Assembly (NCBI RefSeq): GCF_000007345.1
Contig: NC_003552.1
Location: 4,278,001-4,342,000, forward strand
DNA: 64,000 bases
Direction of reading: 5' to 3'
DNA from: Methanosarcina acetivorans C2A
GTDB lineage: Archaea > Halobacteriota > Methanosarcinia > Methanosarcinales > Methanosarcinaceae
Translations under genes and position numbers: made by a program
Shown: in pieces, positions 1,368 through 27,142 of the stretch
Numbering within the stretch: the first letter of the stretch is position 1
How the letters are laid out: each line of letters begins with the position of its first letter
Notes under the pieces: generated by a model
Told to the model about the DNA's origin: nothing
The model's input: only the letters and a program-made list of their open reading frames with translations
The model's database searches: none

Positions 1368-1850
1368 TCAATTTCCTTTACCATGAACTGGACACTTATC
1401 CCTGTTTTCAGGGGAGCAGCTTATATATTCACCTGTCTGGACAAAATATCTGAAATGTTCTATCCAGATTCTTGATTCATCTTCTTTATCCGTAAATTCT
1501 ATGAATTTTTTTAATGCCTGTGCCGTTTTTGGATTCAGGATATGTTCAATTTTGCACGCGTCTTCTTCTGCGGTCTTTTCATCAATCCCCAGATGCATGA
1601 GAAAATCCTTTAACATGCTGTATTTTTCCCTTGTTTTTCTGGCGATTTCCATACCTTTTTCGGTAAGGGTTACTCCACCGTACTTTTCATAATTTATGTA
1701 ACCTTCTTTATCCAGTTTTTTGAACATACCTGTAACAGTTGAAGGGCCGAGTTCCAGCTCGTTTGCTACATCTTTAACTTTAGCGTACCCTTTTTCTTCT
1801 ACAATTGATGCAATAATTTTCAGATAGTCTTCATCTCTTTCCGTTGTCAT
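1368..1850 (-). CDS. DtxR/MntR-family metal-dependent transcriptional repressor
   Basis: A 160-aa protein with an N-terminal winged helix (residues about 5-65, DYLKIIASIVEEKGYAKVKD... GPSTVTGMFKKLDKEGYI, then the wing YGGVTLTEKG) followed by the dimerisation/metal-binding helices (EEDACKIEH). This is the usual DtxR/IdeR/MntR two-domain layout. The SH3-like third domain is absent, as in MntR-sized members. The C-terminal tail has a short Cys pair (SCSPENRDKCPVHG) that may bind metal. Such proteins bind palindromic operators when loaded with Fe2+ or Mn2+. Three near-identical 26-bp palindromes in this window (3312, 19110, 27464), one in front of feo, are plausible targets, but that link is inferred. 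A TATA-like stretch sits at about 1879-1886, so the leader is short. Confidence 0.9.
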   Translation of the reverse strand: MTTERDEDYLKIIASIVEEKGYAKVKDVANELELGPSTVTGMFKKLDKEGYINYEKYGGVTLTEKGMEIARKTREKYSMLKDFLMHLGIDEKTAEEDACKIEHILNPKTAQALKKFIEFTDKEDESRIWIEHFRYFVQTGEYISCSPENRDKCPVHGKGN

Positions 1851-3311: not shown

Positions 3312-3337
3312 ATAATTTTCGGATATACGAAAATTAT
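3312..3337. promoter_or_regulatory. 26-bp palindromic operator, DtxR-type candidate (copy 1)
   Basis: Near-perfect palindrome with core TTTTCGGATATACGAAAA. It is the exact reverse complement of the site at 19110-19135 and close to the perfect palindrome in front of feo at 27464. A TATAAATA-type box directly follows on the minus strand, which suggests a minus-strand promoter overlapping the operator. No intact gene follows it; the downstream region is decayed. Confidence 0.7.
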
Positions 3338-3484: not shown

Positions 3485-4063
3485 TTACAGGCACAAAAAA
3501 TGAAAGTATGCATGGACTTTCATGCCAAATGCCTGTCCTGTCAGTATCGCACCCTTTTGTGCTACTCTGCTTTTACAACCTGATGAGGGTAGGGCTTCCT
3601 GTAACGGCTGCTTGCAGGGATATTTGTCTGTACCGTTTTCAAAATACCCTATTTGTTTTATTTTCCTGTGGCATGCCCAGGTTAGCGTGCTGGTGCAATT
3701 CTCTAATGTCGAATTAAGCGTAGCCCGCAATGCTGCCTAATCTGGAGCCACAGGTGATGGTTCCCGATGTGCTGCAGTCCGTAATTCTATAAAACGAAGG
3801 TACCGGTCTCACCGATTTATATTTCTCATGCTAGAAGCCTCCGCCAGCTAACCCCCGATACGTATCGCGTTGCATGATACCGAGATTGTGGCATCTGCCA
3901 AGCAGTTAGTTAAGAGGATAGGTTTATTCACATCATACGTGCCTGTATATTCCAACAGCCCTCCTGTCATAAGATTGTCTTCTCCTGGCGCCCTTATCCT
4001 AACTTCAGCATGGCATTATTTGATATCCAGGCCATCGAACACGCAACCTGCCAGGCATTAGGG
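3485..4063 (-). pseudogene. Decayed GLUG-repeat fragment, 3' remnant of the giant gene
   Basis: Minus-strand translation in shifting frames gives pieces clearly homologous to repeat units of the giant protein at 4879-17635. Bases about 4060-3855 read LAGCVFDGLDIK, stop, CHAEV... then MTGGLLEYTGTYD and NCLADATISV. Bases about 3845-3730 read SFYRITDCSTSGTI... LGSIAGYA. Bases 3728-3640 read [12 protein letters not shown] and QIGY. In-frame stops and frameshifts show it is dead. The sense direction and order match the giant gene, from which it is separated by the IS66 remnant, so it is most likely that gene's severed 3' part, with a deletion of the intervening chelatase and repeat sequence. Confidence 0.75.
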
Positions 4064-4881
4064 CCGAAAAAGAATGCTTTGAGAATTTAGAGGTTTTTGA
4101 AAGCATTATTCTAGAGAAGTTGCTGGCTTCTCCCGTTATTTATTTTGACGAACCCCGTATGAAAATTAAAGAAAAAAGGCACTGGCTTCATGTAGCCCCT
4201 ACTGACAAATACACCTGTTATTTCTCTCACCCCAAAAAAGGATATGAGGCAAAATGTTATGGGAATTCTTCCTGAATTTAGGGGAGTAACTGTTCACGAT
4301 GGATGTAACCCCTACAACGCTTATGATTGTGATCATGTTCTGTGCAATGCTCATTTACAGAGAGAACTTACTGGAATTGAAGAGAACTATAAACAGCAGT
4401 GGGCTAAAGAAATGAATGAATTGCTCACTGAGATGAAAAAGTATACTGACGAATGCAAAAAGCAAGTCAAAGAACTGGATTTTGAGCAAATTAAAGCATT
4501 GGAAGAAAGGTTTGATGCTATAGTCATAAAAGGAATTGAAGAAAATCCACAATCTCTAAATCCTGAAAAGCAAGGAAAACGTGGAGAAGCCAAAAACCAA
4601 GGCAAGGAATCTGCTGGATAGGTTTATAGAACACAAAGAAAAGACCCTGAGATTCCTCACAGATTTAAAAGTTCCTTTTGAGAACAATCGAGCAGAAAAA
4701 GATGTCAGGATGGTGAAACTACAGCAGAAAATATCAGGAACTTTCAGAAAACAAACGGAGTGCAAGCTTTCTGCAGAATTAGAGTGTACATTTCTACAAT
4801 CAGAAAGAATGGGTTGCCTGTTTTGGAGAGTATTATAGCGGCGCTCAAGGGAGCGCCGTTAACTCATACCCTGAATAGTTA
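4064..4881 (+). pseudogene. IS66-family transposase remnant (frameshifted, internally deleted)
   Basis: Frames joined across shifts read VIYFDEPRMKIKEKRHWLHVAPTD (about 4137-4207), GILPEFRGVTVHDGCNPY... CNAHLQRELTGIEE (4262-4385), and [20 protein letters not shown] (about 4670-4725). These are the RNase-H-like core and C-terminal signature of IS66 transposases. A frameshift near 4240, another near 4580, and a shortened N-terminus show decay. The right end carries a GC-rich hairpin (GGCGCTCAAGGGAGCGCC, 4842-4859), and ends near 4881, where the minus-strand sequence GTAACTATTCAGGG begins. That boundary creates the premature stop of the giant gene's fourth chelatase domain. Confidence 0.85.
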
Positions 4882-7800
4882 CTTGATTTCTTCAATATGG
4901 CCCGAAGCCGAGGTCACAAGTATCGGCACGGTGATAATGTGTTCAACACCCTGCTCTTCCAGACTGGCAATTGCCGTCCAGATATTTTCACCTTCAACAA
5001 ATTCTAAGAAGCCCAATTCTACAGGATACGGACAATCAATAGCTTCTACGGCATCCCGTATAGGTTGGTTCCACTCATCTTCCGGGGAGCCGGGCGCTAC
5101 TATCAGTATCCCGATTGTTGAGGACTCACCTCCTGACTCACCTCCTGACTCACCTCCTGACTCACTTCCTGTTTCTTCCTTCCCTATCTGGGGTGCATCG
5201 GATGCGCCGTTGATGGTCAGGGTACTGGTACAGTTTTCAATGGTGGAATCGTAGGCGTATCCTGCGATGCTACCCAATGTAGAACCTCCGCCTGTAATGC
5301 TGCCCGAAGTGGTAGAATCCTCAATTGCATAGGATGAAGGTATTGGCCTCTCATCTGCATAAAACTCATGATAAAAGCTCCCACCGACAAGACCTCCTAT
5401 GAGCTCGGTGCTGTTCACCACTGTGATGTTGACATTCGCCGAACACCCCTTTATCTCTGCGGGGGCATCATCACCAAAGGTACCCGTGAAGCCTAGAAGT
5501 CCCCCTACCAGGGTATTGTTTTCACCTAAAACCATGATGGAAACATCGGCATGGCAGTTTGTGACCTCGGTTCCTTCCTGGGCGTAGCCAGCGTTGCCAG
5601 CCAGTCCACCCAAGCCAAAGCAATTGTCTCCTTCTGCCGTTATCGTGCCTGTCGCCGTGCAATCCCGGACCGCAGAGTTCCCTTCCTGTCCGCCGAGTAT
5701 AACACCTGCGCAACAGCCATCGCCCAAGACCACAATATCCGCAACAGCGTCACAGCCAATAAGATCTCCAAAGGTACCTCCAGTTATGCCACCTGTTGCC
5801 TGATAGCCCTGGACTGTATTAATGCCAGTCAAAGTTACATTCTCCAGGGCGCTATCCAGAGCCTGGAATCCGATTACGCCACCCACCAAAAAGTTTCCGG
5901 TCACGTTCACATTTTCCACTTTCAGGTCGTATATGGAGCTTGGATTTTCCCCGTCTCCGACAGTGCACCCGAATAAACCCACTGCTGTGCCTGCAGGCTG
6001 GTCGATAGTCAGGTTGGAAATGGTATATCCGTTGCCGTTAAAGGTGCCGCTAAAGGCTAGTTCCGGATCCGGCGTCTCTTCATCCTCCGGGTCGTCGGAC
6101 AAAGGCTGGAAAATACCGATGGGTTCCCAGTTTTCATAGCCAGAGAGGTCGATGTTCGCCGTTAAAACGAAGTCTTTATCCAGATAGTTGCGCACCTGGT
6201 CAAGCTGTTCCACTGTTGAGATCCGGTACGGATCGGACTCCATGCCGCTGCCGCCCTCAAAGACGGTGCTTTCCCCTATGATCAACAAGTTATCGGCATC
6301 TTCCCAGCGCAATTTTTCCACTACTTGAGCCCGGAGAGCTTGAAAGGTCTTTTTTTCCTCAGAGCTTGCGGTATTATCTTTAACCTTGTTTTTTAAGGCA
6401 TAGAAGTTCTCCGGAAATACCTCGGGACGCGCCTTTACGGTTAATGTCCTGCCACTTTCATGATCAGTAATCTGATAACTATAATAATCTTCATTATGAG
6501 GCCGTTCTTCCAGACGATATCTAGCGGTACCCAGTATGGTTTGCAGTGCCGCTTCAGTGCCTTCTGAGTTTGGTCCGACTGCTGTAAAACGACTGCGCTC
6601 AGCAACAGCTCCAGGGCTCAAAACCTCAAGTGCTTCCTGCATAGCCCGGTAAGCAAAGGAACCGCAAACACAAACCTTTCCTCCTTCCTCCAGAGCAACA
6701 TCGGAATACTGGATTACATGTATCTGTCCTGATTCCTGCAGTTTTATGTCTCCCATAATCGCATCATTGGCACGAAATGCAATATATTGGGCCATGTTGG
6801 CATGAGGCAATAGTGCCCTTTGCCCGGCGTCGGGGTACAGGTAGGTTATACCCTCTAGGCTGGTGGGTATTTTACTGTCAGTATAAACTCCTTCACTCAA
6901 CATAACCGGCATTACTATAACTGTGCAGTCAGGATTATTCTTTTTTACCTCTTCGACCACGGTTCTTATGTTTGGTGTTCCAGCTCCCACAAATCCGTAA
7001 TATACTTGCTTGAATCCCTGTATTTGCTGCAGTTTATCCCCCAGGGATGCCATCTTTTCTTGCCAGACAGCTAGATTTTCCGGATTAGATGTACCGTGAG
7101 CAACCAGAACCACTATTTCTTTCTCAGCATCCTGGCTAAGGTTTTTCAATCTTTCATCGAGAATTTCGGCAATCAATAAATGATCATCTAAAGCGGAAGT
7201 CAATTCCACAGTGGTGGTTTTTTCGATTCTTTCCAAACCTTCTTCTTGTGCTGCTGCATCTTCCAGCGTGCTGGGTAAACCGAGCATGTATTTTATTTCT
7301 TCCATGTGGCTAGAAGCAGAACATACGAAAATCGGAACAGCCACAATTCGTTTCACTCCCTTTTCCTCCAGTGCCTGCACGGCCATGGCTATGTTTTCTG
7401 TTTCCGCATCCAAAAAGCCTAATTCTACTGGATAAGGCACTTCAACCTCGGCTACTGATTCACGTACACGCTGGTTCCAATTTTCATCTGACCCATGGGC
7501 TATTACTAATATTCCTATATCGGCAGTCTGCTCTTCATTTACAGCATAGCCAATCTGTTCAAGAGCGCCATCATTCCATGTCATAGTGCTGGTGCAGTCT
7601 TCTACGGTGGAATTATAGGCATAACCCGCTATGCTTCCCACTGATTCCGAACCGCCATTGATAGTGCCCGATGTGGAGCAATTATCTATGGCAAAAACAG
7701 AAGGAATTTTCTGAGTAAAACCCGTTGTGCTGCCGCCTACCAGACCGCCGACACAGGTCGTGCTGTCCGATACGTTGATGGTTGCATCCGTAACCGTACA

Positions 7801-10800
7801 TCCCGTTACCGAAGTGGGGGCGTCCTGGCCATAGGTGCCGACAATGCCTATCAGTCCTCCAATCAGACGATCGCCTGTACCCGAAGCTGTAATTGTCACA
7901 TTTTCAGCTGTGCAGTTCGTTATCTCCGGTGCCGCATAAGGCGCGCCGCATACTCCGCCCAGCGCCCAGCAGTTATTTCCTGTCGCCGTTACCGAACCGC
8001 CGGTTGCCCTGCAGTTGATCAACGAGCCTCCGTCCGTGCCGCCGACCACAACCCCGGCGCATATGCCGTCATCGCCTATAACTACGACGTCCGCAGCAGC
8101 GGTGCAGCCTTGCACGGTGTCAAAACTGGTTCCGACCACGCCGCCAATGCCCTGCAAGCCCTGAACCGTATTCAAGCCGGTCAAGGCTACGTTTTCCACC
8201 GTAAAATTCGTATGCTGGAGGCCGACAACACCGCCTACCAGATAGTATCCGGTTACATTCACATTTTCCACTTTCAGATCATGAATGGAGCCGGGATTAC
8301 CTTCCGCGCCCACAGCACAGCCGAACAAGCCTACCGCCAAAGACATAGGCTCATTGATGGTTACATTTGAAATAGTGTGATTGTTACCATCAAAAGTACC
8401 GGTAAAGGCTACCGCAGGCTTGGGAACCTCCGCATGCTCCGGTGCGTCCGACAAAGGCTCAAAGGCGCCGATGGGCTCCCAGTTCCCGTAGCCTGAGAGG
8501 TCGATATCCTCTGTCAGGATAAAGTGCTGGTCCAAATAATTGCGCACCTGATCAAGCTGCTCCGGCGTGGCGATCAGGTACGGATCCTCAACCGTGCCTG
8601 ATCCTCCTGCAAACGGCGATATTATGCTGGTCTGCTTGATATAGGAGATCGTAAAGGCCTGCCCCTCATCTTCTCCGGTTAACGTGAAAATGGTTTTACC
8701 CGCACTGTTTGTTGTGATGGTATACTTAGCCGCCTGCGGTTCATCGACTCTGGCGACATAGATACCGGACTTGACAGAAGCGGACCCGTCGTTGTCATAG
8801 GCGAAAACCTGATAATCGAGGGCGTGCTGCCCCATAGAATAGGTGCGGCCGTTTCCGTTCGCATCTACCACAAAGTACAGCGTATCAGGCTGAGCCTGTC
8901 CGTCTATATAATAATCCCAAGTGCCTACCAGATCGCTGATCTGGGACAGGGAACTGGATGTACGAGCCGCGGTGTAGTCCATATTTTCCAGGCAGAACAG
9001 GGCGATGACCGCTTCAATTTCGGTCTCTTCCGGGTCGCTCATCGCGGCCGTCGGGATTCCCGCCGCCATCCAGTAGGCATATGCGCCCCCGTAGAGTTTT
9101 AACAGTTCATCCAGATCGCTGCCGTAGCGGAACTCGATGTGGTGGGTGGTGTCCGGCGTATCCGGGGCCATTGCGAAATATTTGTATTCGTCCGCGTTGC
9201 CATCCAGACTTTCAAAAATATAGAAGCCGAATCTCGTCTCGTCGGTCGCTGTTTCGTAACCGACACAGCGGTAGGCATGGGAGAACAGTTCCCCTCCGCT
9301 TGCATTATAACCGCTGATCTGCGAGCCGTTGAAGATAACGGTCGCAACATCCCCGGTGAAGCCGCAATAGAACTGGGTGCTTTCGGGATTCTCAGTATAG
9401 GCCGCTACCGCCTCCGGACCGTAAAGCGTGCCACCGATGCTCGCCTTCATCGCGGCCGCCGTGTAAGCCGCATTGTCTTCGCCGACAATGACCGCGCAGT
9501 AATCGTGCCAATAATTGCTGTATTCCTCATTGAAGATCGCGCCTTTAAACAACGGCTGATAGGTGTCGGTCAGGCCGTACAACAGGGCCCCGCCGTCCGT
9601 GTCGCCCTCGCTCTCATACTGGTCCGCGCTCTCGTACATGAGCTGGTTGGCGCCGACTTTATTCGTCGCAACCGCTCCGTTGATCGTAAGACCTGTAAAC
9701 GTGCAACCGTCCACGTTGCTGCCCACCGCGCGGCCGGCCACCGCGCCGGGAATTGTCACACCGTAAGAGGAGGTGGCGTCCGTTCCGGCGATGATGGTGC
9801 CCGTCACCGTGCAGTCGGTCACATTAAACCGGTCCTCCATGCCGTAAAAGTAAAGGCCGGTACCCACCAGGCCGCCCACATGCGTCGCGCCGGGAGCGTT
9901 GATGGTCACATTTACGATGTTGTTTGAGATCTCGCAGGGAGGGGAAACCGTACGGAGGTCGGCATTATAGTTGCCATCCTGATCGTAGCCGCTGCCGTCG
10001 TCGCCCGTGCCGGCATAGCCGCACAGGCCGCCGATGGCGTGGCCGCCCTGTTCCGTCGTGATGACGACAGTCGCCGTGTTGCCGGAGATCCCGGTCATGC
10101 ACTGCAGGGCGCCGCCGATGCCACCCAGTCCCACCGGCTCGTTGCCCGCCGCGGTGACGGTACCGGTCGCCGTGCAGTTCTCAACGCTACCGGTGAAGCC
10201 GCCACCCACTACAAGGCCGCCACACTCGGCCACATCGCACTGGATGATACGCCCCTTGGTCTCGGAGTCCTCCGCATGGAAGTCATTGTCGCCGATCACG
10301 ATGATGTCCACGGTGTTCACCGTGCACCCGCTTATATCGGCTCCGTCGCTGCCGCCCGCGATGCCGCCGACGCAGTTGGTGCCGGTGACGGTGTTGGTGC
10401 CTGTCAGGGTAACGTTTGAAATCTCACCGCCCATGGCATAGCCGACCACGCCGCCAGCCGCTAGGGTGGTTTCATCGCCATTAACGGTCACGTTTTCCAT
10501 CGTCAGATCTTTGACGGTGCCAGTGGAGCAGGCGAACAGACCGCTCACCGCTACCATATCCCCGTCGGTGGCGGCCGTCATGTTGGAAATTTTGTAATTG
10601 TCGCCGTCAAAGCTGCCGGAGAACACCTTGGCCATATCCATCTCGCCGGTTTCCATATTCACATCGCTGGAATAGGTCAGAACGCCGATGGGTTCCCAGT
10701 TTTCGTAGCCAGAGAGGTCGATGTCCGCCGTCAAAACGAAGTCCTTGTCTAGGTAATTGCGCACATGGTCAAGCTGTTCTGCCGTAGCAATTTGATAGGG

Positions 10801-13800
10801 GGATTCTGTTGTTCCGTTTCCGCCCTCAAAAACTCCGATGGAATCATAGGCACGGGCAACAATCAACTGAGAAATTTTATCATGGGGCAGTAAAGAACGC
10901 TGTCCTTCCTCCGGATATACGTAAGTTAACCCGGCCAACACTTCAGGAATCTTGGTACCTGTGAATGTGCCTTCGGAAAGCATTACCGGCATAACAATAA
11001 TGGAAGCTCCGGGATTTTCCGCTTGCTTTGCTTCTACCACTGCCCTGGCATTCGGTTCACCTAACGCCACGAAGCCATAATCGACATCCAAAAATTGATA
11101 GTTCTCTTTAAGCTGCTGCCCTAAAGATGCCAGATTATTTTTCCAAACGGCCAGGTCTGCCTCTGCAGAAGTCCCGTGAGCGATCAGTACCACGATTTCC
11201 TGACCTGCCTGCTGGCTAACCGTTGCAATACGGTCACCTAGAATTTCTGCTACCAAGGGGTGGTCATCCAGGGCCGATGTCATTTCAATCTCGGCACTGT
11301 GCGAAACTACTTCCAGCCCTTCCTCACTTGCTTCTTCTGTAATGGCACTGGAGATTCCCAGTATGTATTTGATTTCTTCAATATGATCTGAAGCCGAAGC
11401 CACAAATATCGGAACAGTAATGATGCGTTCAACACCCTGCTCTTCCAGACTGGCAACTGCCGTCCCGATATCTTCCCCTTCAACAAACTCCAGGAAACCC
11501 AATTCTACCGGATACGGACAATCAATACCTTCTACGGCATCCCGCACCGGTTGGTTCCACTCATCTTCCGGTGAGCCATGCGCTACTACCAGTATCCCGG
11601 TTGTTGGGGTCGATATTCCTGTTTCTTCCTTTCCTACCTGAGGTACATTCTCCAACGCATAGTAGGTGGTTATGGTGCTGGTGCAGTTTTCTATTATGGA
11701 ATTGTAGGCATGGCCCGCAATGCTGCCTATGGCTTCAGAGCCGCCGATGATCCTGCCCGAGGTGCTGCAATTCGCGATCCTGTACATGGTTGGCGTGGGG
11801 TAATACTCCTTGTATTGCTCCAGGTAAAACCCGCTGCCCACCAGGCCACCGACACGGCTCGTGCTGTCCGATACGGTAATGGTGACATCAGCCGAGCAGC
11901 CCGTCACCTGGGTTTTGTGCTCCGCGTCAGAGGCTCCCGTATGCCCTAATAATCCGCCGATCATGGCATTGTTTTCACCCAAAGCTGTGATGGTCACACC
12001 ATTAGCATGGCAGTTGGCGACCGCCTCTCCCTCAATTACGCAGCCGGCCAGGCCTCCCACACCATAGCGATTATCTCCTTCCGCCGTTACCGTGCCAGTG
12101 GCCGTGCAGTTGAGTAACGAACCGTCCTCCAGTCCTCCGCTCAACACACCCGCATGGTTCGCGCCATCACCCCGGAGCACGATGTCCGCCGCAGCGTGGC
12201 AGTCTTTCATATCATTCAGGCTGCCGCCCGTAATGCCGCCTATATTGGCATTTCCCCGAACTGTATTGCTTTCGCCGGTTAAACTTAAGCGCTCCAGGTT
12301 ACCGTTCAAAAACTGAACACCGACCACACCCCCTACAAAAGCGGATCCGGTAACATCCACGTTTTCCACCTTTAGATCATGAATGGAGCAAGGATTTTCC
12401 GGTGTTCCGACAACGCACCCGAACAAGCCCACCGCCATGCCCTCAGGCTGATTGATGGTCAGGTTGGAGATGGTATGACCGTTGCCGTCAAATGTACCAG
12501 AAAAGGCCACTTCGGGATCGGGATTTTCCTCATCCTCCGGCGCGCTGGAGGCAGGCTGGAAAATTCCAATCGGTTGCCAGTTCTCATATCCGGCAAGATC
12601 GATATCTGCCATCAGAACGAAGTCCTTATCCAGATTATAGCGCACCTGGTCAAGCTGCGCCGCTGTTTCGATCTGATAAGGGGATTCATCGCTCCCATCC
12701 CCACCCGCAAAGGCATTATTGATGCCAAACAGGCATTCTAGCATAGCCACCTTATCAGCTGTACTGAACTCATCGCCCATCTGGAGCATGGTCGGCATCC
12801 AGCTGCTGAGTGTTATGCTGTCCGGTTTGTAAGTACTCAGCGTATTCTTCGTTTCGGCATAGTAGAAGTGGACGTGGGCGGGCATAGTGGTCTCATCCAT
12901 ACCCTCGTCAAAGTGGGGTTTGAGCATTGCAATATAGGTCAGCACACCCGCATCGTCATCCGCCTTGAATACATAGGTTGTCTCTCCGGCCAACATTCCC
13001 AGACTGTTGTTGCTCTCCACAAAGGTGTAAGGGTGAGACTCAATGACATTGCCGTCCTGGTCACAGAAATAGATGGTCTTGCAATCATAACCAAATTTAA
13101 TCTGGTAGATCTGCGAACCGTTATTTGCTGGAGCCGATGCCATATTTGCAAACATGGCCTTTAGAGATGCGCCATCAGTGACATTCACGCCAAACATTCC
13201 TGCCATCATTTGTGCCGTCTCGGAGGAAGCTGCGGTGTTCCACACGTTGCTTAGAGCATCGTCGTTTACATAATTGACAAGCGATTCAAAGCTGCCGCTG
13301 CCGCTATTTGCCCAGGCGGAAAGATCCTCCACGCTTTCCGGCTGGTCGGAACTTTCGTACATTCTATCGGTGGTACCAATCTTTGCCAGGAGAGGATTAC
13401 CGTCTAACTTTACGTCGTAGCTGATTTCACTGCCGATGGTGCAGTTCTCTGCGCGTCCGGCAATCGCACCCGGAGTGACCGCTCCGTTTATTTGACCCTC
13501 GATGGTGCAATTGTCGATGGAAAACACTGTTTCCATTCCCATGTAGTAAAGTCCCGTGCCTACCAGCCCGCCGATGTGTGTGGCGTTGGCCGTGTTCATT
13601 ACAAACTTGACCGAGCAATTTTCGATGACTGCCGGATTTTCCGTGTCCCCGGTGCCCGCGTATCCGCATAAACCTCCGACCGCATGGGCCGAATTAGGCG
13701 CGGTAATAGTCACGTCCGCCGTGCATCCTGTGATGTTCTCCATATATTCGAGGCAGCCACCTATACCGCCAAGGCCAACGGGCTCGTTACCCTCGGCAAT

Positions 13801-16800
13801 TATCTCGCCCAGGGCAGAGCAATTCTCAATGCTGCCGGTAAAAGCGCCGCCTATGATCAGACCGCCGCATTCGGCCACATCGCACTGGATGATGCGCCCG
13901 CTTGAAAAGTCGTTATCGCCCAGCACGTTAATCGTTACATCTTCAACCGTGCAGTTCTTAACGCTTCCAAATCCGTGTCCACCGATAATGCCGCCGATGC
14001 AGTTGATGCCGGAGATCGCATTTTCACCTTTAAGCGCCAGATTTTCCACCAAGCCGCAGTTAAGGCCGATGATGCCTGCAGCTGACATGTAGCCGGTAAC
14101 CGAGGCATTTTCCACGGTCAGGTTTTTAATCACTGCATCGGAGGATGCCACACTGAACAGGCCGACACCGACAAGATCCTGGTGAGTTGCGGTCAGATTG
14201 GAGACGGTGTGGCCGTTGCCGTCAAATGTGCCGGAAAAGGCAATATCACTATGGCCGTCGTTTTCGAAAATATTTTCGTCAAAGGTTCCGATGGGCGTCC
14301 AATTTTCATATCCGCTGAGATCGATATCTGCTATCAGGACAAAGTGCTTGTCCAGATAGTATCGAACCCGGTCAAGCTGCTCTGCCGTTGTGATCCGATA
14401 AGGAGATTCTTCAGTTCCGTTTCCACCCTCAAAGGCACTTTCATACAACCCTACCTGAGATACATTTCCCGACACTCTGTTTATAGTCATAGTGCTGGTA
14501 CAATTTTCCACGGTGGAATCGTAGGCATAGCCCGCGATGCTTCCTACTTCGTTTCCACCTCCAGTGATGCTGCCCGAGGTGTTACAGCTGTTGATCGCAT
14601 AGTGCGCAGGCACCGGCCTAGCTTCTGCAGCCAACTCATGATAGAAACTGCCGCCGACAAGACCACCCACACGCTCAGTGCTGTTCAACACTGCGATAGT
14701 GGCATTAGCCGAGCAATCTGTTACTTGGGTTGGGAGTTGCTTACCATAGGTTCCAGCATAGCCAAGAAGCCCACCGACCATGGTATTGTTTTTACCGCAA
14801 GCTGTAATGGAAACATTATCGGCATGGCAGTTTATGACTTCTATTCCTTCAAATGCGCCACCGATCAACCCTCCCAGCGCAAAATAATCTTCTCCTTCCG
14901 CTATCACAGTGCCTGTCGCAGTGCAGTCAATAACTGAACAAGCGTTCAGAGCCCCGCCTAAAACACCCGCGGAATTGGCGGCATCGCCCACGAGTACGAT
15001 ATCCGCTGCAGCGTTGCATTCTCTCAGCTCCGCAGAACCTCCGCCTATATCGCTGCCTCCTAAAATGCCACCCACATAAATGTTGCCCTGAACTCTGTTA
15101 TCGCCAGTAAGAGTTATATTCTCCATGATACTGTCCGCATACTGAAAACCAACTACTCCGCCGACACAAAAGTTTCCGGTCACATTCGCATTTTTCAGAG
15201 TTAGATCGTATATGTGAATGGGACTTTCCTGTTCCCCGGCAACACAGCCGAATAAACCAACCGCCATGCCCTCCGGCTGATCGATGGTCAGGTTGGAGAT
15301 GGTATATCCGTTGCCGTTAAATGTGCCAGTAAAGGCCAGTTCCGGATTCGGAGTCTCCTCATCCTCCGGGTCGTCGGACAAAGGCTGGAAAGTACCTATG
15401 GGCTCCCAGTTTTCATAGCCAGAGAGATCGAGGTCCGCCGTTAAAACGAAGTCTTTATCCAGATAGTTGCGCACCTGGTCAAGCTGTTTCACTGTTGCGA
15501 TCTGATAGGGGGATTCAGTTGTTCCGTTTCCACCCGCAAAAACTCCGATAGCATCATAGGCACGGGAAACAATCAACTGAGAAATTTTATCATGGGGAAG
15601 TAAAGAACGCTGTCCTTCCGCCGGATATAAGTAAGTTAATCCGCTTAGAACTTCAGGAATTGTAGTACTGGTGAATGTGCCTTCAGAAAGCATCACCGGC
15701 ATAACAATAACGGAAGCTCCGGGATTTTCCGCTTGCTGTGCTTCTACCACTGCTCTAACATTCGGTTCACCCATAGCCACAAAGCCGTAATCTACATCCA
15801 AAAATTGATAGTTCTCTTTAAGCTGTTGCCCTAAAGATGCCAGGTTATTTTTCCAGACTTTCAGATCTTCCTCTTCAGAGGTCCCATGAGCGACCAGTAC
15901 CACGATTTCCTGATCTGCCTGCTGGCTAACCGTTGCAATACGGTCATCTAAAATTTCCGCTACCAATGGATGGTCATCCAGGGCCGATGTCATTTCAATC
16001 TCGGCATTGTGCGAAACTACTTCCAGCCCTTCCTCAATTGCGTCCTCTTCCGTAATGGAACTGGAGATTCCCAGTATGTATTTGATTTCTTCAATATGAC
16101 CCGAAGCTGAAGCTACAAATATCGGCACGGTGATAATGTGTTCAACACCCTGCTCTTCCAGACTGGCAACTGCCGTCCCGATATCTTCCCCTTCAACAAA
16201 CTCCAGGAAACCCAATTCGACTGGATACGGACAATCAATACCTTCTACAGCATCCCGCACCGGCTGGTTCCACTCATCTTCCGGTGAGCCATGCGCTACT
16301 ACCAGTATCCCGGTTGTTGGGGGCACCACTCCTGTTTCTTCCTTCCCTACCTGAGGTGCATCGGATGCGCAGTTTACGGCCATAGTGCTGGTACAGTTTT
16401 CTATGGTGGAATTGTGGGCATGGCCCGCGATGCTGCCTATGGATTCAGAGCCGCCGGTAATGCTACCCGAAGTGCTGCAGTTCACGATACTATACATAGT
16501 CGGCGTGGGGTAATACTCCTTGTATTGCTCCAGGTAAAACCCGCTTCCCACCAGTCCGCCTACCCTGCTCGTACTGTCTGACACGATAATGGTGACATCA
16601 GCCGAGCAGCCCATCACCCGGGTGGGGTGCTCCGCGTCAGAGGCTCCCGTATGCCCCAATAACCCCCCTATCATGGAATTGTTTTTACCACAAGCTGTAA
16701 TGGAAACATCATCAGCATGGCAGTTGGTGACCGCCGCTCCCTCAATTACGCAGCCGGCCAGTCCGCCCACTCCATAACGATTGTCTCCTTTCACCGTCAC

Positions 16801-17559
16801 CGTACCTCCCGTCGCCGTGCAGTTGAGCAACGAACCGTCCTCCAGGCCGCCGCTCAAAACACCCGCGTGGTTCGCGCCATCGCCCAGGAGCACGATGTCC
16901 GCCGCAGCGTTGCAGTCTTTCATATCACTCAGGCTGCCGCCTGTAATTCCGCCTACGTTGGTGTTGCCCCTAACCGTATTTTGATCGCCGGTCAAACTCA
17001 GGCCTTCCAGGTTTCCGTTCAAATACTGAACGCCAAGCATGCCCCCCACAAAAGCGTATCCGGTCACGTCTGCATTTTTCACTGTCAGGTTGGATATGGA
17101 GCTTGGATTTTTCTCATCGCCGACGGCGCACCCGAATAAACCAACCGCCGTGCCTGCAGGCTGATTGATGGTCAGGTTGGAAATGATATATCCGTTGCCG
17201 TTGAAGGTACCGGTAAAGGCTGCTTCCGGATCCGGGGTCTCTTCATCCTTCGGGTCGTCGGACAAAGGCTTAAAAGTACCGATAGGTTCCCAGTTCTCGT
17301 AGCCGGAGAGGTCGATATCTGCAGTCAGAATAAAGTGCTTATCCGGATAGCATCGCACCCGGTCAAGCTGCTCTGCTGTCGCAATCTGGTACGGATCTGA
17401 CTCCGTTCCGCAGCCCTCTGCGAACAACGACACTGCTATCTCTTCCTTGTCCTGTATAAGATGCGTTTTCCAACGTACAGTTGATGGTCGCAGTGCTGGT
17501 GCAGTTTTCCGCCGCAGGATCGAAGGCATATACAGTGGCTGGAAGTAACGAAAGAACAA
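4879..17559 (-). CDS. Giant secreted multidomain protein: GLUG-like repeats, CbiX-type chelatase, ZinT-like and FmdE-like domains (5' frameshift, 3' truncated)
   Basis: This 4226-aa frame has no own signal peptide; the true N-terminus is in another frame at 17446-17635. It is built of about 340-aa blocks opening FxGGxGTxxSPYxIxTxEQLDxVRxYLDKxFVL and closing ENCTSTMT, filled with GLUG-type repeats (GGLxG, NCHA, CSAD). Between blocks are two-lobed CbiX/sirohydrochlorin-cobaltochelatase-like domains: residues about 412-673, 1984-2240 and 3345-3600, each starting GILVxAHGS. A fourth (4146-4226) is cut and reads VAPGS. ZinT/YodA-like metal-binding segments lie near 1423-1610 (HVHFYY) and 2656-2856 ([15 protein letters not shown]). 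An FmdE-like segment with [12 protein letters not shown] lies near 3603-3763. Known relatives of these domains bind or insert metals; a cell-surface role in metal or metal-tetrapyrrole capture is inference. Base composition looks richer in G+C than neighbouring genes, which suggests transfer, probably from Firmicutes. The 3' end is broken by an IS66 remnant. Confidence 0.8.
5125..5169 (-). repeat. 12-bp tandem repeat encoding ESGG linker
   Basis: Three and three-quarter copies of CTCACCTCCTGA on the plus strand, encoding SGGE repeats. They form a flexible linker in front of the truncated fourth chelatase domain of the giant protein. Confidence 0.9.
10840..12610 (-). repeat. Long intragenic direct repeat, copy 2 (GLUG block plus CbiX domain)
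   Basis: This stretch and 15540-17340 encode nearly the same GLUG block followed by the same CbiX domain, with long identical DNA runs, for example around 11791-11833 and 16501-16544. They are about 4.7 kb apart in the same orientation, a substrate for recombination that could add or remove whole modules. Confidence 0.85.
15540..17340 (-). repeat. Long intragenic direct repeat, copy 1 (GLUG block plus CbiX domain)
   Basis: Partner of 10840-12610. It encodes the first GLUG block and the first chelatase domain of the giant protein, with only scattered substitutions relative to copy 2. Confidence 0.85.
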
Positions 17560-17635
17560 CTGCCATCGTTAATAGCATGGTGAGAATTCTTCTCAATTGC
17601 CACTGATTACTTAAGGTAATGTGTGGTTTTTCCAT
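17363..17635 (-). CDS. True 5' end of the giant gene: signal peptide plus start of mature protein, in a different frame
   Basis: Starts ATG at 17635 with a strong ribosome-binding site (GAGGGG, 17642-17647). It encodes a basic N-region, a hydrophobic core ([21 protein letters not shown]) and an Ala-type cleavage site at about residue 37, then [11 protein letters not shown], which matches the closing motif of the giant protein's repeat blocks. The frame stays homologous to about base 17455. After that, homology ([19 protein letters not shown]) continues only in the 4879-17559 frame, so a single frameshift near 17400-17460 separates the two. The signal peptide style resembles Clostridia cell-surface proteins. 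The start of the mature region being the tail of a repeat suggests an N-terminal deletion by recombination. Confidence 0.75.
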   Translation of the reverse strand: MEKPHITLSNQWQLRRILTMLLTMAVVLSLLPATVYAFDPAAENCTSTATINCTLENASYTGQGRDSSVVVRRGLRNGVRSVPDCDSRAA

Positions 17636-17935: not shown

Positions 17936-18778
17936 TTAAGTGAATTGCAAATGGACTATCCTGTTATTGAAATGATTTTTAAAAGCGGGAATAACAGCCA
18001 GCCAGCCCAGCCAGCCCCACCTGTCTTTATGATAATCGAAGTAATTCCACTCGTTGACCACTTTAATTTGCTTATTGTAGGTTTCCAATTCCTGGCTATC
18101 TTTTACTCCCCATCGAAATTTAGCATCCATTCTGCCTATAGTATCATGTCGCTTGCTCATCTTCACGATGTCCGGGCTCATAACTTCCAGAAGCATTTCT
18201 GCTCCCGGGAATTCGGAAATCAGTTTATTCAGCAGGGTTTTGACTTCCTGCACGGTAAAATACATCAGTAGCCCTTCGGCAATGATCAAAACCGGTTCGT
18301 CTGTTACACTAATTTCGTCCATCCAGGAATCATCAAAGACCGATTTGGCAATCATCCTGTAGTGGTCAGTTTCGACAAAAAAATTCTGTCTGATGCGGAT
18401 TACTTCCGGTAAATCCAAATCGTACCAGTGTATCTTACCATTATCTACCTGCACAAAGCGTGTATCCAGTCCACAGCCTATGTTAACCACTACAGCGTCG
18501 GGGTACTTTTGAATGAAACACCGCACAGCTTGATCCAGAAGCTTGGTTCTCACCACAACCCCGATCTGGGATTTCCATGCATTGGCAAATTTCGTGAAAT
18601 CATAGTCTACTCCGTTCATTATCTCCGCTGCTTTTGTATCTTTAATTATCGGGCAGGTTTGTTCTGCTTCAACGGCCCGCGCCCACAACGGGATAAGCAA
18701 GGTCTCAGATATACCCTGTAAATTCGGTGTTATATCCTGTAAATCCGGCTTATTAGCCATACTTATAGAATCCCCCAT
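17936..18778 (-). CDS. Class I SAM-dependent methyltransferase, leucine carboxyl methyltransferase (LCMT) type
   Basis: 280 aa. The LCMT/PPM-type signature is present: KAAEIMNGVDYDFTKF near residue 48, an early RTKLLD helix near residue 77, the SAM motif VVNIGCGLDTRF near residue 96, an acidic strand end WYDLDLPEV, and VLIIAEGLLMYF near residue 163. A WGW stretch and aromatic C-terminus follow. In bacteria such proteins occur with metallophore or polyketide-type clusters, but the substrate is not deducible here. It lies downstream of the giant gene's start (both on the minus strand) and of a palindromic operator at 19110 pointing the same way, so it may belong to that metal-regulated unit. 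Coding from ATG at 18778; the first in-frame alternative is MANKPD. Confidence 0.85.
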   Translation of the reverse strand: MGDSISMANKPDLQDITPNLQGISETLLIPLWARAVEAEQTCPIIKDTKAAEIMNGVDYDFTKFANAWKSQIGVVVRTKLLDQAVRCFIQKYPDAVVVNIGCGLDTRFVQVDNGKIHWYDLDLPEVIRIRQNFFVETDHYRMIAKSVFDDSWMDEISVTDEPVLIIAEGLLMYFTVQEVKTLLNKLISEFPGAEMLLEVMSPDIVKMSKRHDTIGRMDAKFRWGVKDSQELETYNKQIKVVNEWNYFDYHKDRWGWLGWLAVIPAFKNHFNNRIVHLQFT

Positions 18779-19109: not shown

Positions 19110-19135
19110 ATAATTTTCGTATATCCGAAAATTAT
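19110..19135. promoter_or_regulatory. 26-bp palindromic operator, DtxR-type candidate (copy 2)
   Basis: Core TTTTCGTATATCCGAAAA, the exact reverse complement of the 3312-3337 site. On the minus strand it is followed by TTATAAATAGTT, as at copy 1. The flank (TTGAAATGTTGTAGTAACTA on the plus strand) is shared with the feo promoter region, so these are related promoters, not chance palindromes. It faces the small frame at 18888 and the methyltransferase. Confidence 0.75.
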
Positions 19136-19695: not shown

Positions 19696-21429
19696 TTAAT
19701 TACTTTGATATTGCGCCTTTAACATTGAGGAAAAAATTCCTTGATTTTCTTTTAATTCAAAAGGTGTGCCTGTTTCTGCGATAACCCCGTCTTTAATGAC
19801 AACAATCTTATCAGCCCCTGAAACTGTTCTCATACGATGCGCAATAATCAAAACGGTTTTGTTTTTTATAAGCTCACTGAGTGCTCTTTGGATTTTGCTC
19901 TCATTTTCCGCATCAAGAGATGCTGTAGCCTCGTCAAGCAGGATAATTGGAGCGTCTTTTAGTATTGCTCTGGCTATTGATATACGCTGTCTTTCGCCTC
20001 CCGATAATTTTTCTCCGTTTTCTCCTATTAAGGTGTCATATCCTTGCGGAAGCTTCTTTACGAACTCATCGCATTGGGCCAGTTGTGCCGCCTTCATTAC
20101 TTCTTCATCCGGTGCGTCTTCCTTCCCAAGACGGATATTATCCATAACGCTTGAATTAAAAAGCGTAACATCCTGAAAAACGATTGAAAAATTGTTCAGA
20201 AGGGTTTCAGGATCAACCCTGGAGATATCTTCTCCGCCCATGGTGATGACCCCTTTGTCGATATCCCAGAAACGAGCAGACAGCTTTGCAACCGTGCTTT
20301 TCCCGCCGCCGGAAGGTCCTACAAGCGCCGTTACTTCACCTTGCTTTGCGGTGAAGTTTACATTCTGCAATGTTTGCACACCGTCTTGATAGGAGAAGTC
20401 CACGTTCTTGAATTCGATATCGTAGTTTTTCGGATGAAATTCAGTTCTTCCTTCCTGTCTTGGCATTCCATCCATCTCTTTCATGCGGTTTATCCGCACG
20501 TTGAGATATATAAGCGCTGCAAAGTTGTTCAAAGCGTCCGTAATCGGATTATAAATGCGCGCAGTGATGACAAGAAAAACAATGTAAGTAAAAATATTTA
20601 TGGTCCCGGTTGACAAAAGATATGCTCCGACCAATATGACACTGGGAAGACCAAGCTTTAAAACAGCGTAAGAAAGGTTGATGAATGCGCCTATCAAAAG
20701 CTCTGTTTTGATCAAAAACTTTTCGTAGTTATCCAACTTTGCGTTTAACGCCTTTGAAAAAGCCTCTTCTCTGTTGTAGGACTTTACTTCGTGGACTGAA
20801 TCAAGTCCCTCTTGAATATTATCCGAGATATCTCTTTTTATATTATATATTCTCACCTGTGTACTATTTTGAAACTTTCTCGAAAGATAAAAAACCAGGG
20901 CGGCAACCGGAACTACCCAGAATACGGCAAGGGACAGCTCCCAGTTATAGAAAAACATCATCATCCCCATGATCAGAAGAGTCAATCCCGCTGCATAAAG
21001 CTGGGGAACCGTATGGGAAAAGAGCGTCTCTATCTGTGTTACATCTTCCATGATGGTAGAGCTTAAATCGGCAATATCTTTTTTGCCAAAAAAAGCTAAT
21101 GGAAGCTTTCTTAGCGTTTCAGCCAGACTGATCCGTCTTTGAGCACTTTCTTCATAAATTTTCGTGTAGGCCGAGTCGTACTGAAAGGTGGCGATAACAA
21201 ACATTATCAGGAAGGACACGGCAGACAGAATAACGTAGTAGAGAAAGCTGCTTTTCTGGCTGGTTGAAGAATTTATCAGGGAGCTTATGTGTTCATCGAG
21301 GAAATAAAAGCTGAGGATTACCGGAGCCAGAAAGCTGATGTCCATCACTACGGTCCAGATTATCGAGTGAAGAAGGTCTTTTGCGCCTTTTTCAGACATA
21401 GCATATTTATTTTGAAAATATTTTATCAT
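19696..21429 (-). CDS. ABC transporter half-molecule (membrane domain plus ATPase), second of a pair
   Basis: 577 aa: six-helix exporter-type membrane domain (about 1-310), then the nucleotide-binding domain with Walker A GPSGGGKST near 372, Q-loop FQDVTLF, signature LSGGERQRIS near 480, Walker B IILLDEATASLD and H-loop AHRM. It starts 15 nt after the partner gene at 21445, so the two are co-transcribed and probably form a heterodimer of the IrtAB/YbtPQ kind, which import siderophore complexes despite an exporter fold. That substrate assignment rests on the neighbouring iron genes and general resemblance to Firmicutes pairs. Alternatives are peptide or drug export. Confidence 0.88.
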   Translation of the reverse strand: MIKYFQNKYAMSEKGAKDLLHSIIWTVVMDISFLAPVILSFYFLDEHISSLINSSTSQKSSFLYYVILSAVSFLIMFVIATFQYDSAYTKIYEESAQRRISLAETLRKLPLAFFGKKDIADLSSTIMEDVTQIETLFSHTVPQLYAAGLTLLIMGMMMFFYNWELSLAVFWVVPVAALVFYLSRKFQNSTQVRIYNIKRDISDNIQEGLDSVHEVKSYNREEAFSKALNAKLDNYEKFLIKTELLIGAFINLSYAVLKLGLPSVILVGAYLLSTGTINIFTYIVFLVITARIYNPITDALNNFAALIYLNVRINRMKEMDGMPRQEGRTEFHPKNYDIEFKNVDFSYQDGVQTLQNVNFTAKQGEVTALVGPSGGGKSTVAKLSARFWDIDKGVITMGGEDISRVDPETLLNNFSIVFQDVTLFNSSVMDNIRLGKEDAPDEEVMKAAQLAQCDEFVKKLPQGYDTLIGENGEKLSGGERQRISIARAILKDAPIILLDEATASLDAENESKIQRALSELIKNKTVLIIAHRMRTVSGADKIVVIKDGVIAETGTPFELKENQGIFSSMLKAQYQSN

Positions 21430-21444
21430 ATTGACCTCCTTAGT

Positions 21445-23229
21445 TTACCTGGCTTTTGCGGCAATTTTCCAGGCAACAGATTTTTGGTATTCATCCCACA
21501 TGGTTTTGTAGATGCCACCTTTATTCAGCAACTCTGCGTGCGTTCCTTCCTCTGCAATCCTTCCGCTTTCGATAACCAGAATTCTGTTGACCTCCCGTAC
21601 GCTGGTAAGACGATGTGCAATCATAAGAGTTGTTTTGCCACGGCTAAGCTCCTTAAGAGCTTTTTGGATTAAATGTTCATTTTCAGGGTCTACAAAGGCA
21701 GTGGCTTCATCTAAAAGCACGATCGGAGCATTCTTGACCATGGCTCTGGCAAGCGCAATTCTCTGTTGTTCTCCCCCTGAAAGATAGGTTCCTTTTGAGC
21801 CTATTATCGTATCAAGTCCGTCAGGGAGATTTTCGATAATTTCTCTTGACTGCGAAAAATCAATTGCTTTATTTAGTTCTTCTTCTCCGACGTTATCTTT
21901 TCCAAAAACTATATTTTCTTTTAGTGAACCTTTAAACAGCCTGGTGTTTTGAAAAACAAAGGAAATATTGTCCATTAGTTCTTTTTTAGGAATATCCTTG
22001 ACATTTATTCCTCCGACTAATACTGCGCCTTCATCTGCATCCCAAAAGCGAGCGGCCAGCCGGGAAATGGTTGTTTTTCCGCCTCCTGAAGGACCTACAA
22101 GTGCGACCGTTTCACCTTCGTTTAATTTAAAGCTGATTTTATCGACGGCGCGTTTGTCGCTTCCTTCATATGAAAACGCTACGTTCCTAAACTCCAGGCT
22201 GTGATTTTGGATGTTTTTTGTGTTTTCGCTATGGCTCATGCTTGGATAATCTAATAGGTTATCCAGCCTGTCAATGGCTTGCTCCGCAATCAAAGTATTT
22301 TGCTGAAAATACATCGATTTCATCAAAAGCATAGTGAAAATTGGCGATATCAGAATGTAAAAAACAAAGTCCGCAAGCACAAGGGGAAGGTTTTCTCCTC
22401 TTCCTATTAAAAAGATAGCCACTGGAATTAAAAAGAATGCGGCTGATTGCATAATTACGGTGTAAAATGACATTGGTTTTCGCCAAAGAAGGGTATACGC
22501 ATGAACCATCTCTTTATATTTGATTATGCTGTCATAGAACCGCTTAAAAGAAAATACTGTTTGGCCGAATGTTTTTACAACCGGAATACCGCGGACATAT
22601 TCCACGGATTCGGAGCTCATTTCCTCTAAAGAATCAAAATACATTTTTTGAAATTTTTTACCTTCGGAGTTCATCATGAACTTCATTGTTATGAAGCCCA
22701 AAATAATTGGAACAAAAGAAGCAAGTCCCATTCTCCAGTCTACGATAAAAGTCAGAGCTATAAGAATAATGGGGGAGACGACGCTGCCTGCCATATCCGG
22801 GAGCTGATGTGCTAAAAATGTATGAGTTGTTCCCGCTCCGTCATTTACAATCTTTCGTATTTTCCCGCTTGAATGCTTATCAAAAAAACCAAGCGGCATA
22901 GACATTATTTTGTTCATGCCAACTTTTTGTATCCCGACCTCTACGTGAAAAGCCGCAAGATGCGAGCTCATAAGTGCGCAAAAATATACTATTATTCCTC
23001 CTATTGCACTTGCAAAGGCTAGCCACGCATAAAAACTGACATTTGAAATGTCAATCGATTGGGGAGCTGATAATATATCACGTGTTATGTACCATATAAG
23101 CACAAAAGGCAAGATGTTAAGAACTGCGGAAATTCCCGACAATACCAATGATAATGGCAAAAGTACTTTCTTCTTGCCCATGTAAGGCGTGAACCTTTTT
23201 AAAATAAAAATTTTTTTCTCTTTCGGCAT
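21445..23229 (-). CDS. ABC transporter half-molecule (membrane domain plus ATPase), first of a pair
   Basis: 594 aa with the same layout as its partner: transmembrane domain to about residue 320, then Walker A GPSGGGKTT near 378, Q-loop FQNTRLF, signature LSGGEQQRIA near 483, Walker B IVLLDEATAFVDPENEH and H-loop AHRLT. The signature differs slightly from the partner (GGEQ versus GGER), and the two are only moderately similar, as in heterodimeric exporters. The start ATG at 23229 has no strong ribosome-binding site. Upstream sequence to 23440 shows a weak open frame that may be a remnant. The pair lies between the methyltransferase/operator region and feo, which suggests a role in metal or metallophore transport. 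Confidence 0.88.
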   Translation of the reverse strand: MPKEKKIFILKRFTPYMGKKKVLLPLSLVLSGISAVLNILPFVLIWYITRDILSAPQSIDISNVSFYAWLAFASAIGGIIVYFCALMSSHLAAFHVEVGIQKVGMNKIMSMPLGFFDKHSSGKIRKIVNDGAGTTHTFLAHQLPDMAGSVVSPIILIALTFIVDWRMGLASFVPIILGFITMKFMMNSEGKKFQKMYFDSLEEMSSESVEYVRGIPVVKTFGQTVFSFKRFYDSIIKYKEMVHAYTLLWRKPMSFYTVIMQSAAFFLIPVAIFLIGRGENLPLVLADFVFYILISPIFTMLLMKSMYFQQNTLIAEQAIDRLDNLLDYPSMSHSENTKNIQNHSLEFRNVAFSYEGSDKRAVDKISFKLNEGETVALVGPSGGGKTTISRLAARFWDADEGAVLVGGINVKDIPKKELMDNISFVFQNTRLFKGSLKENIVFGKDNVGEEELNKAIDFSQSREIIENLPDGLDTIIGSKGTYLSGGEQQRIALARAMVKNAPIVLLDEATAFVDPENEHLIQKALKELSRGKTTLMIAHRLTSVREVNRILVIESGRIAEEGTHAELLNKGGIYKTMWDEYQKSVAWKIAAKAR

Positions 23230-24117: not shown

Positions 24118-24429
24118 TCAGCCTGTCCGGTTGTGACAAACTCTCCGTCCCTTTTCGGTCAACCTGTAAATTTTACCGCTTGATAAGGTAATTTTTCCTG
24201 AACATTCGCAACACCCGCAATTTTTACAGGAGCCGGAGCAGGAAGAAGACCAGTCAGGATTTGTCTCCGTAACTTTTTCAACATGTCCCATTCCTTCCAT
24301 AATTTCGAGTAAACCTTTAAGCTGCTGCGTACTCATTTTCAAATGTCTCGAAATCTCATTGAAAGAGATACTGCCTTTCTTTTCCGCTTCTTCCATCTGT
24401 TTCAGTACATATATGTATCCGAGTACCAT
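24118..24429 (-). CDS. FeoC-like iron-sulfur winged-helix regulator
   Basis: 103 aa, last gene of the feo cluster, overlapping the preceding gene by one base. It has a winged helix in the first 55 residues (KGSISFNEISRHLKMSTQQLKGLLEIMEGMGHVEKV), then a cysteine-rich loop SCSGSCKNCGCCECSG, and a short C-terminal strand pair. FeoC proteins carry such a loop and bind an Fe-S cluster; they modulate FeoB stability or feo transcription. The cysteine count is higher than in the enterobacterial form. The context makes a feo role very likely; the DNA-binding versus FeoB-binding role is open. Confidence 0.8.
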   Translation of the reverse strand: MVLGYIYVLKQMEEAEKKGSISFNEISRHLKMSTQQLKGLLEIMEGMGHVEKVTETNPDWSSSCSGSCKNCGCCECSGKITLSSGKIYRLTEKGRRVCHNRTG

Positions 24430-26910: not shown

Positions 26911-27142
26911 ACGGATCCGGTTCGACCATAATTTTCATAGCCATACCCTTTCCAAGGGCGTAACGTGCTCCATTCACGTTGACAAGCAGATTCCCTCTCT
27001 CGCATCCTATAAGCCGGACAGAAGACGAAGGCGTAAAACCCATTTCTGTCAGCCTTCTCTTGAGCTCCAGACCTGCTCGAACTTCTTTGATCCTGCAGCC
27101 TTTCCCTTCCGAAAGCATGGTAAGAGGCATCCGTGCGGTCAA
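26888..27142 (-). CDS. feoA: FeoA-family SH3-like protein (second copy)
   Basis: About 84 aa; the SH3-like FeoA fold is seen in LKRRLTEMGFTPSSSVRLIG... RYALGKGMAMKIMVEP. Start chosen at TTG 27142 because GGAGG lies 6 nt upstream, inside the end of the first feoA; ATG at 27130 is the alternative. It overlaps feoB at its 3' end. FeoA is a small cytosolic partner needed for FeoB-mediated ferrous uptake. Confidence 0.9.
   Translation of the reverse strand: MTARMPLTMLSEGKGCRIKEVRAGLELKRRLTEMGFTPSSSVRLIGCERGNLLVNVNGARYALGKGMAMKIMVEPDPCEGVELG

Follow-up and report, generated by a model that had tools for sequence, protein, structure and literature searches.

A giant GLUG-repeat open frame with CbiX-type chelatase and FmdE-like domains near the feo genes of Methanosarcina acetivorans

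We analysed a stretch of 64,000 nucleotides from the genome of Methanosarcina acetivorans C2A (NCBI RefSeq assembly GCF_000007345.1, contig NC_003552.1, positions 4,278,001 to 4,342,000 of the forward strand), referred to here as the window. It contains a single open frame of 4226 codons on the minus strand, made up of seven GLUG-repeat blocks (G), three full and one truncated CbiX-type domains (C), one FmdE domain (F) and two further segments (Z), in the order G1-C1-G2-G3-Z1-G4-C2-G5-Z2-G6-C3-F-G7-C4(truncated). As stated in an earlier note made from the letters of the sequence, the neighbours of this frame include genes for a DtxR regulator, two ABC half-transporters and the FeoB and FeoA proteins (Table 1).

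Table 1. Features of the giant frame and its surroundings (positions counted from the first nucleotide of the window)
Feature	Position	Strand	Basis or remark
Giant open frame, 4226 aa	4879-17559	-	ORF and domain dissection
G1, GLUG-repeat block	16327-17442	-	PF07581
C1, two-lobed CbiX-type chelatase domain, aa 412-665	15565-16326	-	both signature His kept
G2, GLUG block	14455-15564	-	PF07581
G3, GLUG block	13345-14454	-	PF07581
Z1, aa 1395-1612	12724-13377	-	family unconfirmed; HxH motif
G4, GLUG block	11620-12723	-	PF07581
C2, CbiX-type domain, aa 1981-2236	10852-11619	-	91% identical to C1
G5, GLUG block	9640-10851	-	PF07581
Z2	8635-9639	-	relative of Z1 (29% identity); sub-threshold ZinT
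G6, GLUG block	7534-8634	-	PF07581
C3, CbiX-type domain, aa 3343-3604	6748-7533	-	88% identical to Bacillota homolog
F, FmdE-like domain, aa 3600-3762	6274-6762	-	PF02663 and 2glz structural match
G7, GLUG block	5140-6273	-	PF07581
C4, truncated CbiX half-domain	4882-5139	-	His to Pro in AHGS motif
90-aa open reading frame (ORF) with signal peptide	17363-17635	-	out of frame with giant ORF
IS66-family fragment ending the giant frame	~4057-4884	+	PF03050; transposase pieces 4244-4621 and 4581-4838
Decayed GLUG-block remnant beyond the IS fragment	3632-4054	-	tblastn E=7e-16; stops and frame changes
DtxR/MntR-family regulator	1368-1850	-	PF01325/PF02742; MntR-like NCBIfam below cut-off
LCM-type S-adenosylmethionine methyltransferase, upstream in the presumed operon of the giant gene	17936-18778	-	PF04072
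Two ABC half-transporters, MsbA/YbtQ-like class	19696-23229 (19696-21429 and 21445-23229)	-	
feoB and two feoA-type genes	24898-27392 (feoB 24898-26910; feoA-type 26888-27169 and 27144-27392)	-	
Predicted palindromic operator AATTTTCGTATATCCGAAAATT	19112-19133	.	upstream of the methyltransferase-giant operon
Predicted palindromic operator AATTTTCGTATATACGAAAATT	27466-27487	.	upstream of feoA
Third predicted operator AATTTTCGGATATACGAAAATT	3314-3335	.	between the decayed 3' end of the giant gene and the DtxR gene

Domains and ends of the giant frame

The GLUG blocks, the four CbiX-type domains (three of them complete) and the FmdE-like segment that the earlier note had recognized were all recovered by profile searches. 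With hmmscan the Glug model PF07581 matched the whole protein at E=3e-111 in 13 stretches, and all 26 matches above the cut-off in a genome-wide search fell inside the giant frame. The GLUG blocks account for about 60% of the residues and are 35-77% identical in pairwise comparison. The CbiX model PF01903 matched the whole protein at E=3.3e-83 (275 bits, cut-off 22) in seven half-domain stretches, which correspond to three full two-lobed modules and one half, and C3 by itself scored 94 bits; C3 is 55-57% identical to C1 and C2. The CbiK model PF06180 also matched the whole protein (E=9e-17). FmdE PF02663 scored 26.8 bits on the isolated F segment (cut-off 22.9). The closest NCBIfam models are those of the sirohydrochlorin nickelochelatase CfbA; a single module fails the equivalog cut-off of NF033198 (93.5 bits for C3, 120 required), which is passed only by the sum of the repeats.

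An AlphaFold2 model of C3-F was predicted with a pLDDT of 90. In the PDB its first part matched SirB (E 7.9e-10, TM (target) 0.73), the periplasmic CbiK of Desulfovibrio vulgaris (2xvx, 1.3e-7) and FetB of Porphyromonas gingivalis (9b86, 3.3e-7), and its second half matched the FmdE-like structure 2glz. The structure search also revealed a weak resemblance of the chelatase fold to periplasmic binding proteins. Profile and structure searches returned class II families only, with no match to a CobN/ChlH-like class I chelatase. Across 16 aligned family members H13-G14, H76, D116, H118, H146-G147 and E214 are invariant, and the signature His pair (AHGS and the His of SxSxHxxE) is kept in C1, C2 and C3.

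The Z segments, which had been called ZinT-like, did not hold up as such. With ZinT PF09223 (cut-off 27 bits) Z1 gave no match and Z2 reached 13.4 bits (E=0.02-0.07), and the same search of the bacterial genomes carrying a Z segment was likewise without a match. An hhalign comparison with E. coli ZinT brought the HxH stretches into register at a probability of only 1.2%, and the model of the Z segment was poor (pLDDT 48). Profile, profile-profile and fold comparisons thus all failed to confirm ZinT, although Z1 and Z2 do resemble each other.

The frame had also been taken to run from 4879 to 17635. The 4226-residue frame stands, but the start at 17635 belongs to the separate 90-residue ORF, and a single protein over the whole interval was rejected on account of the frame difference between the signal peptide and the giant ORF. 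In the closest relative, a metagenome-assembled genome (MAG) of the same genus designated MAG165, the signal peptide and the first GLUG block share one frame, from which the window differs by one base in length near 17450; the break may be genuine or a sequencing error. At the other end C4 breaks off after some 80 residues where it meets the IS66 fragment (4879), which has an 88% identical copy at another place in the genome. The first signature His of C4 is gone, with APGS in place of AHGS. The M. acetivorans copy is therefore probably damaged, by the frame break after the signal peptide and by the IS66 cut in its last domain. When each segment was compared with relatives, dN/dS ranged from 0.11 to 0.43 (mostly 0.13-0.3), and these low values indicate a coding sequence under purifying selection until recently.

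Exported relatives and probable transfer between domains of life

A search for the same domain order located Z-CbiX-FmdE in Bacillota and related versions within Methanosarcina, which rules out a fusion unique to M. acetivorans; the fusion itself, put forward in the earlier note as the novelty, is therefore not one. Within the genus, homologs with a signal peptide in frame were found in the genome G077 (710 aa; signal peptide-C-G), in M. spelaei (1284 aa; signal peptide-C-G-Z-G) and in MAG165 (1650 aa; signal peptide-G-C-G-Z-C-F). Two Bacillota genomes encode versions of 1469 and 1837 residues in which a signal peptide and SLH domains precede G-Z-C-F, the longer one having one extra full G block. 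All full-length homologs read carry an in-frame signal peptide, unlike the window copy.

C3 is 88% identical in amino acids and 91% in nucleotides to its counterpart in the Bacillota genome G504, and the ABC half-transporters adjoining the homolog in another Bacillota genome, G1094, are 84-87% identical to the pair in the window. In a tree of 42 CbiX domains C3 groups with two Bacillota sequences and MAG165 (support 100/99), C1 and C2 fall into a Methanosarcina-only clade, and both clades stand apart from the other Methanosarcinaceae homologs. The G+C content of the giant gene is 52%, versus 42% for the remaining window. Taken together, these sequence comparisons imply a recent transfer between Bacillota and Methanosarcina. 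The SLH domains of the bacterial proteins, which bind the cell wall, make a transfer from a bacterium to Methanosarcina the more likely direction.

Several phyla also have simpler exported members, in which a signal peptide is combined with a single CbiX module and with one or two FmdE domains. Their archaeal hosts are other Methanosarcinaceae and several families of the same archaeal phylum; the bacterial hosts are Ammonifex, Syntrophaceticus, Moorella, other Bacillota and MAGs labelled Deltaproteobacteria or Armatimonadetes. Signal peptides of full-length homologs were called by eye. SLH domains were detected by Pfam in two homologs (Moorella and G504; best E 5.7e-37) and recognized by eye in further ones, and the Syntrophaceticus homolog has an LPXTG-like anchor at its tail, just under the Pfam cut-off. 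The family has a scattered distribution: of 398 Bacillota genomes sampled, 9 gave a match at E<=1e-40, six of these nine with short proteins of cytosolic type. Two-lobed CbiX proteins of about 260 residues in large Bacillota genomes (for example L113 and L114) were set aside, being of cytosolic type and not exported. A search of plasmids for homologs found none. In most family members the chelatase-FmdE core is present with no GLUG block at all, so that this core and not GLUG is the conserved unit.

Several variants were noted among these loci. In three Methanolobus-like loci (L032 7008-8588, L036 11750-13353, L037 7068-8650) the CbiX-FmdE gene is followed by genes for a conserved exported protein of about 240 residues without a Pfam match and an LCM-type methyltransferase. 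The exported CbiX-FmdE versions at L034 2102-6007 and L033 1007-4489 have an N-terminal region of about 690 residues (NHL/beta-propeller in L034). CbiX-free FmdE-like ORFs, sometimes in tandem, occur near or far from the chelatase gene in family f7 (G115, G144, G331, G276 and others).

Linkage to feo and common predicted operators

At 17 of the 28 informative loci, which span archaea, Bacillota and deltaproteobacterial MAGs, FeoB is encoded, whole or split, within about 7.5 kb of the chelatase gene. Informative loci are those with enough flanking sequence (L033, L035, L038-L040, L046, L052, L094, L098, L108 and L112 were too short and were excluded), the four Methanosarcina loci in the count are not independent, and among the calls of split or short FeoB Pfam confirmed one pair of split genes and a single short form. 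By a rough estimate from 1-3 feoB genes per genome of 2-6 Mb, linkage at a given locus would arise by chance in at most a few percent of cases. In the window FeoB scored 671 bits with TIGR00437, the product of 27144-27392 matched the FeoA model at E=1.4e-11 and that of 26888-27169 is FeoA-like by eye. The typical order in Bacillota is DtxR, FeoA, FeoB, DUF2325, a Nitro_FeMo-Co protein and then the chelatase gene. Genes for Peripla_BP_2 or FecCD importers lie near three bacterial homologs, and in M. spelaei and further Methanosarcinaceae the homolog likewise has an LCM-type methyltransferase gene beside it.

The palindromic operators seen by the earlier note proved to be three exact copies of one pattern. 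At zero mismatch TTTTCGNATATNCGAAAA has three sites in the 5.75-Mb genome, all of them at this locus (window positions 3316, 19114 and 27468), while the reversed control pattern had no match in the genome; even allowing three mismatches, 0.02 matches are expected in the window. The relatives MAG165, G077 and M. spelaei each have a site with 0-3 mismatches 3' of the chelatase gene; such sites also lie upstream of feoA in MAG165 and G077, and upstream of the chelatase gene or its operon in G077 and M. spelaei. A common predicted operator thus stands upstream of both feoA and the operon of the giant gene, which places the two in one putative feo/DtxR regulon, with the local DtxR/MntR-like protein as the presumed reader of the palindromes.

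Further observations were made on the genes flanking these loci. Adjoining feoB in the window, 24118-24429 (minus strand) encodes a small winged-helix-like protein with a Cys-rich insert, SCSGSCKNCGCCEC; it is FeoC-like by eye, had no NCBIfam match and is conserved in Methanosarcina relatives. In archaeal family f7 (L097 12668-14471, and likewise L099, L102 and L103) FeoB is split into FeoB_N GTPase and Gate/FeoB_C membrane genes beside the exported chelatase. In the Bacillota genome G504 (L129 5981-12214) genes for a NifH-like protein and two nitrogenase-component-1-like (Oxidored_nitro) proteins are flanked by a Peripla_BP_2 binding protein on one side and a FecCD permease/ATPase on the other; the half-transporters and the gene for the surface chelatase lie about 5 kb away. 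This nitrogenase-like set is possibly a relative of nitrogenase for tetrapyrrole reduction or metal uptake.

Proposed function and alternatives

We see about an even chance that the giant gene is a repeat-expanded, horizontally acquired member of an exported cell-surface CbiX-FmdE family, which removes or exchanges the metal of tetrapyrroles for uptake by Feo or ABC transporters; the reaction and its direction are what we infer. In this scheme a metal-loaded tetrapyrrole (heme, siroheme or corrinoid-type) would be bound by the CbiX lobes on the outer side of the membrane and have its metal extracted or replaced, so that the class II chelatase reaction would run in reverse or as an exchange. 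The metal would be held by the FmdE and Z segments, and the GLUG blocks would serve as spacers projecting the modules. The freed Fe(II) would be imported by FeoAB, the ABC half-transporters may deal with the leftover ligand or chelate, and the local DtxR/MntR-like repressor would turn the locus on at low metal. The chelatase fold and signature residues, the export signals and SLH or LPXTG-like anchors of the relatives, the FeoB linkage and the operators common with feo support this proposal. They likewise favour the extracellular machine for metals or metal-tetrapyrroles suggested in the earlier note. The window copy looks broken at both ends, a decay that had escaped the earlier reading.

Several observations weigh against this interpretation. 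Class II chelatases normally insert metal, and the assignment of substrate, direction and metal goes beyond what sequence can tell. Eleven of the 28 informative loci have no FeoB nearby, and some FeoB-less archaeal copies adjoin an importer that was judged by eye to be of ZnuA/ZnuB type. That the regulator binds the palindromes is a prediction, and it resembles MntR, so that Mn rather than Fe is possible. Finally, the window copy is truncated and its signal peptide lies in another frame, so that it may be non-functional in this strain.

The last point leads to an alternative to which we assign slightly less than an even chance, and which is compatible with the proposed function for the intact homologs: in this genome the locus would be a relic in decay, a recombining repeat gene of lateral origin that no longer has a function. 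The out-of-frame signal peptide, the IS66 truncation with the decayed remnant beyond it and the widely differing block numbers of the sister-species homologs (710, 1284 and 1650 aa) fit such decay. A relic is less easily reconciled with 4226 stop-free codons, low dN/dS in every block against several relatives and perfectly preserved operators, and the frame break could be a sequencing error.

It is unlikely, in our estimate, that the surface chelatase runs forwards, inserting Co, Ni or Fe into a tetrapyrrole, extracellular or salvaged, that would then be taken up as a metallated cofactor rather than releasing metal. In favour of this reading, the nearest NCBIfam models are those of CfbA and the nearest structures SirB and CbiK, and some bacterial homologs lie near nitrogenase-like genes and FecCD-type importers, which can carry corrinoids or heme; FeoB and DtxR-type regulators, on the other hand, import or sense free metal and not a cofactor. 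We also know of no extracellular source of metal-free sirohydrochlorin. A passive surface binder, in which the chelatase fold binds and hands over a metal chelate with no catalysis, appears improbable as well: both signature His residues and E214 show no variation among 16 homologs drawn from several phyla, and the His pair is kept in C1, C2 and C3, even though the weak fold match to periplasmic binding proteins, the binding capacity offered by numerous tandem modules and the loss of the first signature His from the truncated C4 would suit such a role. That the protein is a GLUG-rich adhesin or surface-layer protein with chelatase domains as incidental passengers, as its GLUG content and the variable block number among relatives might suggest, is very improbable given the GLUG-free persistence of the chelatase-FmdE core in most of the family.

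Among known systems, SirB, CbiX-L and CfbA share PF01903, the two-lobed CbiX-L layout and the signature His in the first lobe, but are cytoplasmic biosynthetic enzymes without signal peptide, FmdE domain or surface anchor. Among exported proteins, FetB of P. gingivalis has been described as a chelatase exchanging the metal of porphyrins (PMC13402209). It resembles the present family, as the match to 9b86 reflects, in having an exported class II chelatase fold tied to iron and heme use. FetB is a single module and, to our knowledge, lacks FmdE, GLUG and SLH domains and is neither an archaeal nor a feo-regulon gene. The periplasmic cobalt chelatase CbiK-P of D. vulgaris (2xvx) is likewise an exported class II chelatase matched in structure, but it is periplasmic, has a single module and belongs to the CbiK and not the CbiX family. 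The domain after CbiX has the fold of the FmdE-like Dhaf_2992 (2glz), which is itself stand-alone, of unknown function and with no known chelatase fusion. HmuS removes iron from heme anaerobically, with FeoB proposed as the importer (PMC12583661). The HmuS of Bacteroides differs in its class I (CobN-like) fold, in being membrane-bound and NADH-dependent and in its unrelated sequence, so that the likeness is only in the way it would work.

More tentatively, and with a probability we regard as well below even, anaerobes of both prokaryotic domains may share an undescribed iron-acquisition route in which wall- or surface-anchored CbiX-FmdE enzymes demetallate or transmetallate external tetrapyrroles for FeoB, as a class II counterpart of Bacteroides HmuS; the family would move between Bacillota and Methanosarcina, where it has been amplified into multi-module arrays. 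Little is known of iron acquisition beyond Feo in methanogens and strict anaerobes (PMC8351635). A literature search for CbiX with FmdE, CbiX with FeoB, S-layer chelatases or this locus found no description, with most subscription journals outside its coverage. Exported chelatases are already known; what was not found in the literature searched is the exported CbiX-FmdE family, its multi-phylum feo link and its amplification in Methanosarcina. Tied to feo by gene neighbourhood across several phyla, and in Methanosarcina by an operator confined to this locus, the family offers a directly testable candidate: tetrapyrrole-bound metal might serve as an iron source in anoxic sediments and digesters. 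It also provides a case in which a unit of surface protein and ABC transporter passed recently between Bacillota and archaea, SLH anchors being confined to the bacterial proteins.

A minor observation concerns the half-transporter encoded at 19696-21429 (minus strand). Among half-size ABC proteins of the PDB, its score with the siderophore importer YbtQ was a little higher than that with MsbA, and import rather than export is therefore possible for this protein.

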